From positions 1 through 21,773 of the IMG/VR virus record IMGVR_UViG_3300035701_004679: DNA of 21,773 nucleotides. One strand, written 5' to 3'. This document shows positions 1,990-17,785 of the stretch, one piece after another. Under the pieces are notes generated by a model. The model was not told the DNA's origin. It did not search any database and saw only the letters and a list, made by a program, of their open reading frames with translations. This DNA comes from a virus. A program made the translations under genes and the position numbers. Every line of letters begins with the position of its first letter. The first letter of the stretch is position 1.

Positions 1990-2640
1990 TCGGGCGCAGG
2001 GCCGCCGATTTCGGCGCCTTCGCCTGTTTCTAAGGGCATCGAGCAGGTGGTTTTGCCGTTCTCCACCTGGCTTTCACGCCTTCTGTGTGATTCTGCGTGT
2101 GAAGCGACGCCGACTCTTGGGCAGTCGTCCGCCGTCAGGGCTTCTGGCCCACGACATTCGAGTCGGTGGTGGAACGCTTCGCTCATCACGCGAACCCCGT
2201 CAATAAAAGAGGGCGTCGATCGCCCGTTCACCGAGGGCCGGCGAAGGCCCGAGTGGAACAGCACGGCCGACGCCCCGTAACGGGGCGCGGTCAATGCTGC
2301 TTCCACTCACTTCAAGAGCCTTTCGGCTCAGGTTCGCCGTTTTCGGTGAAGCAGTGTGACGCTGCGCGTCCAAATCAAGTTTTTCGATCACCACAATCTT
2401 ACCCCACAAGCACTTCCGTGCAAACACTGGCTTGCCGACGCGCCCCTGACTGCTGGGGGTGTCTGTATCGCCGGGTGAAGCAAGGTCTGTCGGTCGGGAC
2501 CGGGGCCAAAACGTCGAATTCGACGGTCTTGGCGCGGATTTCGGTGTTCCCCAGGGTCGGAAATACCGCTTGTGAGGCTTCCAGACGGCGACTTTCACAC
2601 AAATTGACCGGATTCCATGCCTCGGCATTTGACTTTCGGA
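1990..2640 (+). ncRNA. Candidate large structured RNA, about 650 nt
   Basis: No convincing gene lies here, but hairpins are packed almost end to end. The clearest stems are 2044-2050/2063-2069 (7 bp), 2071-2079/2095-2104 (9 bp with one bulge), a nested arm 2110-2116/2160-2166 enclosing 2124-2128/2151-2155 and 2038-type inner pairing at 2138-2141/2147-2150, 2178-2182/2190-2194, 2211-2215/2221-2225, 2235-2239/2246-2250, and a long arm 2251-2308. That arm has 13 bp with one bulge, then GGCCG/CGGTC, then CGCCCCG/CGGGGCG. Further stems are 2316-2320/2325-2329, 2333-2339/2344-2350, 2441-2446/2456-2461 and 2505-2509/2529-2533 around 2512-2516/2521-2525. Four stems contain G-T pairs that read as G-U only on the + strand, which favours + transcription. 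No tRNA, group II domain V or riboswitch class was recognised. Ends are approximate. Confidence 0.45.
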
Positions 2641-4315: not shown

Positions 4316-5227
4316 ATGCCTTTGATCTGCTACGTTCCAAAGTCGTTTCGGCCAGATACCCAGACTCGCATCAACCAGGCCAACGAGATCATCGCCGAGT
4401 ACCAGGCGCAGGGCTTCAAGCTGACTTTGCGGCAGCTTTATTACCAGTTTGTCAGCCGCGACCTGATCCCGAACACGGGCCGGAGCTACAAGTCGCTCGG
4501 CGACGTGGTGAACGACGGGCGTTTGGCCGGCCTGATCGACTGGGACGCCATCGAAGACCGCACACGGAACCTGCGGAGCAGCCCGCACTGGTCCAGCCCG
4601 CGATCCATCGTCCGGGCCTGCGCCGACCAGTTCGCCGTGGACTTATGGGCCACGCAAGAGAATTACGTCGAAACGTGGATCGAGAAGGACGCTTTGGTCG
4701 GCGTCATTGAAGGCATCTGCACCGAGTTGGACGTGCCCTACTTCGCTTGTCGCGGCTATACCAGCCAGAGCGAAATGTGGGGCGCGGCCCGACGCCTGAT
4801 CGAGCGCGAGAAGGCCGGCAAGAAAACGACGATCATCCACTTGGGCGACCATGATCCCTCGGGCATCGACATGACAAGGGACATTCAGGATCGCCTGGAA
4901 CTGTTCGGTTCGACGGCCGTGATTCACCGCATCGCGCTCGTGTTCGACCAGATCGAGCAGTACAACCCGCCGCCGAACCCGGCGAAGACGACGGACGCCC
5001 GTTACCAGTCCTATGCCGACAAGTACGGCAACGAGAGTTGGGAGTTGGATGCCTTGGAGCCGAGCGTGATTGTCGATCTGATCCGCGAGGCCGTGCAAGA
5101 GCGGATCGACTGGGCTGCTTGGGAAGAGGCGTCGGCGCAGCAGAAGACCGGCCGCGATCAACTGGGAAAGGTATCCCGTCGCTGGGAATCCGTCGTCGAG
5201 TACCTGGGCAACGGCGATGGCAAGTAG
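4316..5227 (+). CDS. Spo11/Topo VIA-like TOPRIM protein
   Basis: The 303-aa product combines two signatures. Residues 36-47 read LTLRQLYYQFVS, followed by SYKSLGDVVNDGRLAGLID (58-74). This resembles the winged-helix region of Topo VI subunit A/Spo11, in which a tyrosine of a YY pair attacks DNA; Tyr42 and Tyr43 are candidates. The TOPRIM domain follows, with Glu123 in ETWIEKDALVG and the D-x-D motif IIHLGDHDPSG (Asp178, Asp180). Together these predict a Mg-dependent DNA-cleaving or topoisomerase-like enzyme, related to the minimal Topo VIA-like proteins known from mobile elements. A GAGACA precedes ATG 4316. It overlaps the next gene by 11 bases. The partner ATPase may be the GHKL-like protein at 5814-7244. 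The TOPRIM call is secure; the assignment of the nucleophile is inferred. Confidence 0.75.
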   Translation: MPLICYVPKSFRPDTQTRINQANEIIAEYQAQGFKLTLRQLYYQFVSRDLIPNTGRSYKSLGDVVNDGRLAGLIDWDAIEDRTRNLRSSPHWSSPRSIVRACADQFAVDLWATQENYVETWIEKDALVGVIEGICTELDVPYFACRGYTSQSEMWGAARRLIEREKAGKKTTIIHLGDHDPSGIDMTRDIQDRLELFGSTAVIHRIALVFDQIEQYNPPPNPAKTTDARYQSYADKYGNESWELDALEPSVIVDLIREAVQERIDWAAWEEASAQQKTGRDQLGKVSRRWESVVEYLGNGDGK

Positions 5228-5813: not shown

Positions 5814-7244
5814 ATGTACTTGCTCGTTCAGAATCCGGGTGTCGCTCCTGTCGAAGGCTACACCCTGTTGGGCGTCAGCACGACTCGCAACTGCGGCGTG
5901 GCCGGCACCATCGGCCAGTTCGGCAGTGGCGCAAAACATGCCATCAACACCTTGCTCCGTGCGGGACTCAAGCTGTTAATCTACTGCGGCAAGACCCGCT
6001 TGGAGTTCACCACCCGCGACGATACGGTCAGCGACGGCCTGGTCACGAAGCCGATCAAGCGCGTGGTCTGTAAGCTGGGCGGGACCAGCAGCAAGACACT
6101 CGACATGGGCTGGTGCCTGGACTTTGGCGCGATCGACTGGACCGACCTGTCGATGGCCCTGCGGGAGTTCGTGGCCAACGCCATCGACCGCACGGTGCGG
6201 GAGAAAGGGGACTTCATCCCCGCCCTCTTGAACGAGGAACTGCGAGTGGCGGTCGTCGAGGACAACGCCGTCCGGGCACGAGACGGCTTCACCCGAGTCT
6301 TTGTCGAAGTCAACGACGATGTGCAACGGTTCTACGGCGAGTTGCCCCGTCGTTTCCTCCATTTCTCCAGCCGGCCGCAGTTGGTCAAGGAGTCGCTTCT
6401 GCCGAAGGCCGACCGGAACCTCAACGGCAAGCGGACGGCGATGATCTACAAGGAAGGGGTCTTTGTCCGCGAGATCGCCGAAGACGAAGAGGCGTCGGTC
6501 TACGACTACAACTTTCACGACGGCGAGTTGAAGCTGGACGAGTCTCGCAATTCGAGCGAGTACGACATCAAAGGCGCGGCGGCCCGCCTGTTCCGCAAAG
6601 CCACGCCCCAGCAGCTTGCCCCGGTATTCAAGAGCCTGGTCGCGCAGGAACAGACCTACGAGGCAACCTTCGATTCGTACTACATGGCCCCGTCGTATTC
6701 GGATCCAGAACCCGAGCAGAAGCAGGCGTGGCAGCAAGCGTGGGAGTTGGCCGCTGGCCCCAACGCGGTCCTCTGCGACGCCAGCCTGAGCCATACTTCC
6801 GAATTCGTTGAGAAGAAGGGCTTTTGCCCGAAGCCGACCAAAGCTCCCTCGTGGATTTCGGCCGCCGCTCGTTGCGGCGTCAAGACGGCCGCCTCGGTCC
6901 TGGACGGCCACGAGAGCAACGGCAAACAGATTCTTCCGGCGACCAATGCCGCCATCGAAGCCGTGGACATCGTGTGGTCATGGCTCCAAGAGGTCAACAT
7001 GACGCAGAGTAAGAAGAAACCATTGGCGGCCTGCTTCAAGGAGTGTATGCAGGCCGGCAGCGAGACGATGGGCTTCTACCGCGATGGCATGGTCTACTTC
7101 AAGGAGGACATTGCCACGGCGGTCAACAAGTACCTGCTCCAAACGGCCTTGGAGGAAGTCGCCCACTACGTCACCGGGGCGACCGACGCCTCGCGGGACT
7201 TTCAGAACTTTCTGATTCAGGTCATCGTGGAGATCAAAGGTTGA
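5814..7244 (+). CDS. GHKL-like ATPase with permuted motif order
   Basis: The 476-aa product contains two motifs of the Bergerat (GHKL) ATP-binding fold. GTIGQFGSGAKHAI (residues 31-44) resembles the G2 glycine-rich lid (G-x-F-G-x-G). LREFVANAIDRT (116-127) matches the N box E-x3-N-x2-D (Glu118, Asn122, Asp125). In gyrase B, Topo VIB, MutL and histidine kinases the N box comes first, so the order here is reversed. The C-terminus has ALEEVAHYVTGATDASRDFQ (445-464), which looks like a metalloprotease HExxH helix with the first His replaced by Glu. An AGGT precedes ATG 5814. Together with the TOPRIM protein at 4316 it may form a Topo VI-like A/B pair. The motif matches are seen directly; ATP binding and partnership are inferred. 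I recall similar uncharacterised proteins in phages. Confidence 0.65.
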   Translation: MYLLVQNPGVAPVEGYTLLGVSTTRNCGVAGTIGQFGSGAKHAINTLLRAGLKLLIYCGKTRLEFTTRDDTVSDGLVTKPIKRVVCKLGGTSSKTLDMGWCLDFGAIDWTDLSMALREFVANAIDRTVREKGDFIPALLNEELRVAVVEDNAVRARDGFTRVFVEVNDDVQRFYGELPRRFLHFSSRPQLVKESLLPKADRNLNGKRTAMIYKEGVFVREIAEDEEASVYDYNFHDGELKLDESRNSSEYDIKGAAARLFRKATPQQLAPVFKSLVAQEQTYEATFDSYYMAPSYSDPEPEQKQAWQQAWELAAGPNAVLCDASLSHTSEFVEKKGFCPKPTKAPSWISAAARCGVKTAASVLDGHESNGKQILPATNAAIEAVDIVWSWLQEVNMTQSKKKPLAACFKECMQAGSETMGFYRDGMVYFKEDIATAVNKYLLQTALEEVAHYVTGATDASRDFQNFLIQVIVEIKG

Positions 7245-16525: not shown

Positions 16526-16552
16526 GCCTCCTCAACAGAATTCGTGGGTGAA
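16526..16552 (+). repeat. Left inverted repeat of the ISL3 element
   Basis: It begins GCCTCCTCAACAGAATTCG and matches the reverse complement of 18080-18106 at 23 of 27 positions. The transposase stop codon lies within this repeat. Confidence 0.9.
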
Positions 16553-17785
16553 TTCTGGCTCGGGGAGGTCGCCAAGTGTGTGATATAAGGCGATTTCGAC
16601 GGTTTCGTAGATGCGAAAACCGTAGGCTTTTCTGATAGTCAGTTTGGCGTTGTTGTTCAACGCCTCGGCGGCTCCGGCGGAAACGGTGCCCCGAGCGCGG
16701 AACCAGTTGAGGATCAAGTCCCGATGTTCCCGCAGGCTGCGCGCGATCCTCTTCATCGGCTCGATCTGGCTCCGCATGGTCCGCGTACACCACTCGGCCA
16801 GGAACTTCCCGGCCCACACGGGGCTGGTGTACTCCCAGAACCGCTGAAAGTCCTCCCGCAGCAAACGGCTGCGGACGCTTTGCAGGTTGTACTGCAACAA
16901 CTCGGCCAGTTTCACGGTTTGCTTTTCCGTCAGGTTCTCCCGCCGCTTCAGCAGACACCACCGCGAATGCTTCAACACCGGCTCGTAGCCGTCGCGTTCC
17001 AGTCGGGCGGCTTCGGCACGGCGAACCTCGTCGATGGCCTTGTTCATGTTCTGCATGATGTGAAACCGGTCCAGCACATGGATGGCCTGCTTCAGTTGCT
17101 CGGCAATCACGTTCAGGTAAGGCTGCCACATGTCGCTGCAGACGAAGCAGATCGACTGGCGAGCCTCCGCCGAAAGAAACTGGAAAAAGCCCCGCAGGCT
17201 GTGCTCCGTCCGCTCTGGGGCCACCCACAACAACCGCTTCATGCCGTCCTCGAGCTGATACACCAGCGTCAGGTAATGGTGTCCCCGCCGCCACTGGATC
17301 TCGTCGACGCCGATGGCCTTGATCCCCTCCAGGTCCCGATGCAGAAAGCCCCAGAAAACCGCGTGTTTTACCGACTCGAACACGTTCCGCCAACTGGTGC
17401 GGAAGATGCCCGCCACTTCGTCCCAGGGCAAACGCTTCGCCCAGCGGGCCAGGAACCAGCGAAAGCTCGTCGTCAGGTGGGACTTGCCCCGGGCCCAAGG
17501 CACGCGCTCCACGGTCACCCCGCAACTTGGGCATTCCACGCGCCGCATGGCGTACAGGAAGAACACCGCCATGCCCCACAACGGCACGAACTCGAAACGC
17601 CGCGCGGGCAGGCGATCGTAGCCCGGCCCCGGCCGACCGCAACCCGAACAGATCGCCCGGCCGTTCTTGCGGGCGTGGACCTCGACTTCCAACGTCGCCC
17701 GACCGAGTTCCTCCCCCCATCTGGCTTTCCCGTACACAAAGGACTTGAAAGGTTCCACGCGATTGAGGATAGTCTTCAGTTGCAT
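16532..17785 (-). CDS. ISL3-family transposase
   Basis: The 417-aa product has the usual length and layout of ISL3 transposases. An N-terminal zinc-binding region carries ICSGCG (Cys46, Cys49) and VECPSCG (Cys85, Cys88). A helical DNA-binding region follows (WAKRLPWDEVAGIFRTSWRN). The DDE catalytic domain has AIGVDEIQW (Asp161), CFVCSDMWQPY (Asp218) and AAEALNNNAKLTIRKAYGFR (Glu374). All three acidic residues are present, so the enzyme looks active. It would move its own element by cut-and-paste or related strand transfer. It starts with ATG 17785, about 12 bases after GGGAG, and stops inside the left inverted repeat. Confidence 0.95.
   Translation of the reverse strand: MQLKTILNRVEPFKSFVYGKARWGEELGRATLEVEVHARKNGRAICSGCGRPGPGYDRLPARRFEFVPLWGMAVFFLYAMRRVECPSCGVTVERVPWARGKSHLTTSFRWFLARWAKRLPWDEVAGIFRTSWRNVFESVKHAVFWGFLHRDLEGIKAIGVDEIQWRRGHHYLTLVYQLEDGMKRLLWVAPERTEHSLRGFFQFLSAEARQSICFVCSDMWQPYLNVIAEQLKQAIHVLDRFHIMQNMNKAIDEVRRAEAARLERDGYEPVLKHSRWCLLKRRENLTEKQTVKLAELLQYNLQSVRSRLLREDFQRFWEYTSPVWAGKFLAEWCTRTMRSQIEPMKRIARSLREHRDLILNWFRARGTVSAGAAEALNNNAKLTIRKAYGFRIYETVEIALYHTLGDLPEPEFTHEFC

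Follow-up and report, generated by a model that had tools for sequence, protein, structure and literature searches.

Transcription attenuators and riboswitch leaders precede same-strand genes and carry competing helices, one of which is an intrinsic terminator. The RNA described in the present study shares these features, but matches no Rfam 15 family and precedes very diverse genes. Leader-like RNAs carried by phages have a precedent in the manA and wcaG motifs, candidates found in phages and in bacteria or metagenomes, mostly marine metagenomes and cyanophages (PMC2864571); the Rfam models of both motifs gave no match to the present RNA. GOLLD, ROOL, OLE and HEARO are also structured bacterial RNAs, some of them linked to phages or mobile elements, whereas the RNA studied here is about 190 nt long and without an Rfam match. 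Closer to the hosts concerned is the Rhodopirellula-1 motif of Planctomycetes (and Proteobacteria), a possible cis-regulator lacking an Rfam accession (PMC2864571, Table 1) and rated ambiguous as an RNA in that paper. With Rhodopirellula-1 known here by its table entry only, the present family appears to be undescribed. The literature searched, which took in few subscription papers and left a 2017 list of 224 motifs outside, contained no description of it, and Rfam 15 scans of the window, 20 homologous loci and one consensus-like member gave the RNA nothing beyond chance-level, sub-threshold hits, the sole matches being unrelated tRNA genes in the flanks. These scans covered GOLLD, ROOL, OLE, HEARO and group I and II introns, which had been put forward as candidates, and none reached its gathering score.

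The window is a whole IMG/VR virus record of 21,773 bases, in which no tRNA or tmRNA was found. A preliminary description had pointed to a dense nest of hairpins at 1990–2640, between an inactive and an active serine recombinase gene, and had suggested a large, ornate RNA or a new class, read from the + strand and perhaps involved in recombination control. The flanking genes are as described: Pfam places a recombinase on either side, and the residues bear out the inactive/active pairing. The upstream protein (708–1478) reads YLRVW, with tryptophan at the expected catalytic serine, a loss common to its relatives in related phages, and the downstream protein has the usual YYRVS. The tryptophan-bearing recombinase is perhaps a regulatory paralogue. 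Compared with shuffles of equal dinucleotide content, the region as a whole does fold better than chance (z −5.0 on the + strand, −3.8 on the − strand), but the nest is smaller than supposed. Most of the excess comes from 2195–2389 (z −6.7 and −5.1); it is weaker in 1990–2194 (z about −3), which contains a palindrome at 2067–2105, and 2390–2640 folds no better than shuffled sequence (z −0.2 and −0.4). The near-continuous arm noticed at 2251–2308 is real, and corresponds to RNA helices P4 and P5.

Several other features of the window lie outside the RNA. The palindrome (GGCTTTCACGCC...GCGTGTGAAGC) is strongly conserved with the related contig L022 and resembles the promoter-like block upstream of the second recombinase. 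A conserved + strand block, TCTAAGGGCATCGAGCAGG (TAAGGGCATCGAGCAGGT), lies at 2031–2049; exact copies of its core were found only in three other viral contigs, one of which has two, and each copy stands upstream of a recombinase of the second type with a promoter-like block in between, so it may be an operator or a recombination site. On the + strand at 2476–2640 is an apparently decayed remnant of a 96-aa ORF, recognized by alignment to positions 4411–4642 of contig L003, where the ORF is intact. Further away, a toprim-like ORF (4316–5227; GDHDPSGIDMT) lies close to a second ORF (5814–7244), which contains a GHKL-like stretch (GQFGSGAKHAINT) and shows about 80% DNA identity among several of these phages; together they are reminiscent of a topoisomerase VI A/B pair, although Pfam matches neither. 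An ISL3-family transposase is encoded at 16532–17785, inside the viral contig.

Four related phage contigs (L022, L003, L002 and L004) share the order recombinase 1, small ORF, variable spacer, recombinase 2, and the spacer of all four contains the same structured element. R1, a covariance model for which only L003 and L004 were used and the window was left out, matched the window from 2371 to 2223 on the minus strand (E 1.2e-13), as well as L022, L002 and a Candidatus Anammoximicrobium assembly (L023). A second model, from 83 sequences including the window (R2), matched from 2389 to 2198. Taken together, R1 and R2 delimit a minus-strand RNA of about 190 nt at 2201–2389 (z about −5), from its presumed start to just past a U-tract. 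The homologues align over that length, which leaves an ornate RNA spanning 650 bases unsupported; the suspicion of a structured RNA, possibly of a new class, is supported. In L022 the element is on the minus strand, oriented as in the window, while in L002, L003 and L004 it is on the plus strand and is followed by a small ORF. The window copy is inverted relative to these three and lacks this following ORF, and no convincing gene was found downstream of the RNA in either the window or L022. A candidate gene at this position in the window was rejected after its substitutions relative to L022 showed, by eye, no third-position bias. Being inverted and having no clear gene after it, the window copy looks like a leftover leader, one that may have lost its gene.

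Following the minus strand from its 5' end, a candidate promoter, TTGCAC-N17-TAAGAT, was read from the sequence at 2396–2424; it is weak, falling below the cut-off of a consensus scan, and a −10-like TAAGAT or AAAGAT recurs in L002, L003, L004 and L022. Hairpin P0 (2358–2370; GACGC/GCGTC) is 97.1% paired, with two-sided changes at four of its five pairs. Segment a (2348–2354; CUGCUUC) comes next, and then the 5' strands of P1 and P2 with a conserved A-rich linker between them (2333–2347); two-sided changes affect 10 of the 12 pairs in the stretch formed by a·d and P1, and six of the seven in P2. Hairpin P3 (2316–2329; GAGCC-loop-GGCUC) is 98% paired and changes on both sides at all five pairs. 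It is followed by segment b (2297–2303; GAAGCAG), hairpin P5 (2269–2289; GCGCCCC/GGGGCGUC; P5 94.7% paired, and the alternative helix A2 96.6%), segment c (2256–2264; GUGCUGUUC) and hairpin P6 (2235–2250; 97.8% paired). The 3' strand of P2 forms the loop of P6, which allows for a possible pseudoknot or kissing contact. Segment d (2221–2229; consensus GGAGCGG, in the window GAACGGGCG) runs into the terminator, a GGGCG/CGCCC hairpin and then UCUUUU (2205–2225), where a terminator-like site extends from 2225 to 2211. A U-tract follows the RNA in 89 of 98 homologues.

Two mutually exclusive folds, a rod and a two-hairpin form, both show strong covariation when 83 sequences are aligned by MAFFT without regard to structure (A7). 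P0 and P3 belong to both. In the rod, segment a is joined to d and b to c; in the two-hairpin fold the partners are a and b, and c and d. The 3' arm of P5 likewise has two possible partners, its own 5' arm and the 3' arm of the terminator (the latter pairing being A2). Columns 142, 159 and 239 co-vary (142 with 159, 159 with 239), so this 3' arm has retained both partners. For the rod, 94.5% of the cells across 49 pairs are paired and 39 pairs show two-sided changes, against 38–48% paired when the partners are slid by one to three columns; for the two-hairpin fold the values are 96.1%, 40 pairs and 30 pairs, against 46–50% in the slid control. Counts against shuffles are not probabilities, as kinship can inflate them, but the slid controls preserve relatedness. 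The second hairpin of the two-hairpin fold is a long terminator stem, followed by the U-tract. Across the 83 sequences, G–U pairs far outnumber A–C pairs when read on the minus strand (326:72 and 566:39); the strand is thereby settled and the product identified as RNA. The compensatory changes looked for in homologues are present, though in a shorter RNA on the opposite strand from that expected, and the earlier argument that G–T pairs fit only a + strand transcript was mistaken, the homologues and the terminator-like site both placing the RNA on the minus strand.

Copies of the RNA are numerous but patchily distributed. R1 found about 110, in 69 of 398 planctomycete genomes of the class to which L023 belongs, with up to six per genome, and R2 found copies in 32 of 392 genomes from the phylum as a whole. 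None appeared in two other phyla (150 and 148 genomes, 298 controls in all), although in these large searches, run with strict filters, an empty result from a set without a positive control is weak evidence of absence; the genomes searched were often fragmentary. Two consensus pattern scans of viral contigs yielded no further true members, so that few phage copies are known; of 17 matches in an earlier scan, only three were real. Collections of phages and plasmids returned nothing useful when searched for DNA similarity. By simple ORF calling, the next downstream gene is on the same strand at 98 of 103 loci, at a median distance of 101 nt, and a same-strand gene is thus the rule across loci, but no clear one follows the window copy. 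The 80 downstream products included 12 with a GYF_2 domain, four dynamin-like proteins, three with DnaJ and two kinases, with a methyltransferase, pentapeptide repeats and a phage integrase domain as singletons. They share no metabolic theme, and a search for a common defence role gave only scattered PADLOC matches, of which LeoA-like dynamins were the commonest (four of 80 proteins). The nearest RNA relatives mostly belong to other genomes and stand before unrelated genes (72 of 90), which means that the leader is not bound to one gene family. A serine recombinase lies near the RNA in the phages, in L023 and at three further loci; most chromosomal copies have none and adjoin unrelated genes, which leaves the role in recombination control that was first suggested without support. 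In many of the chromosomal loci L091–L190 an AGGAG box occurs 40–60 nt upstream of the RNA core, with a variable hairpin after it, and is complementary to the CUCCU that ends many copies. A leader-peptide attenuator was considered in view of this box and set aside, as no suitably spaced start codon recurred consistently.

The best reading of these results is a leader acting in the manner of a transcription attenuator or riboswitch, and we think it probable that 2389–2201 of the window is a cis-acting leader RNA of this kind, from an apparently undescribed family shared by Planctomycetota and some of their phages. Two exclusive, conserved folds, one of which includes an intrinsic terminator, suggest regulated termination, and the RNA probably switches between two shapes that permit or block transcription downstream. 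Segments a, b, c and d would swap partners in the process. During transcription a·b would pair first; formation of c·d and A2 would then complete the long terminator stem ahead of the U-tract, and transcription would stop. Rearrangement to the rod (a·d, P1, P2, b·c and P5) would deprive the 3' arm of the terminator of its long partner, and the polymerase may then read into the gene. When each fold was enforced, the rod was better by about 10 kcal/mol on average and lower in 71 of 83 sequences (pseudoknots not counted). The switch must then be kinetic or driven by a signal, with the two-hairpin fold depending on the order of transcription or on that signal, which could be a metabolite, an RNA, a protein or the speed of transcription. 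In the window, d can also take part in a shorter terminator hairpin alongside the rod, and read-through does not necessarily follow from the rod; that the rod is the fold which permits it is a proposal.

It could also be supposed that the RNA is a stand-alone, trans-acting small RNA with its own promoter and terminator, and that the same-strand gene is merely a neighbour. The U-tract of most copies, the promoter-like TAAGAT of the phage copies and the want of a clear gene in the window and L022 would suit this, but it accounts poorly for the near-constant orientation of downstream genes, for the conservation, around the terminator, of two folds that compete, and for a patchy distribution with several copies in some genomes, and we regard it as rather unlikely. 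Less probable again is that the RNA marks a mobile unit of RNA plus gene, its structure serving mobility. Inversion and relocation among related phages, the patchy distribution, close RNA relatives before unrelated genes and the serine recombinases near a minority of copies are what such a unit might leave behind; most loci, however, have no mobility gene in common, no defined ends were found, and the G–U excess indicates a structure formed by RNA rather than DNA. That excess, which DNA pairing would not favour, and the distance of most chromosomal copies from recombinases make it very improbable that the locus holds only DNA-level inverted repeats or recombinase sites, despite its position between two such genes and the palindrome at 2067–2105. 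The 650-nt, + strand RNA first proposed can draw on the z-score of −5.0 for the whole region on that strand, but is hardly credible given covariation and G–U data to the contrary, homologues confined to about 190 nt of the opposite strand, no excess structure in 2390–2640 and no Rfam match.

Returning to the attenuator-like leader, a broader and decidedly speculative extension, unlikely to hold, is that a promiscuous and possibly mobile leader has spread before many unrelated planctomycete accessory genes (for GYF-domain membrane proteins, dynamin-like GTPases, kinases and a methyltransferase) and has entered their phages. One common signal might then govern a patchy, perhaps partly defence-related regulon, which phages could exploit or carry. 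With more than 100 copies, no entry in Rfam and two covarying folds, the RNA is a clearly defined candidate for a regulator from planctomycetes, a phylum with few described regulatory RNAs. The diversity of its targets raises the question of which single signal would suit such different genes, and the phage copies could serve as a small, testable version of the system.
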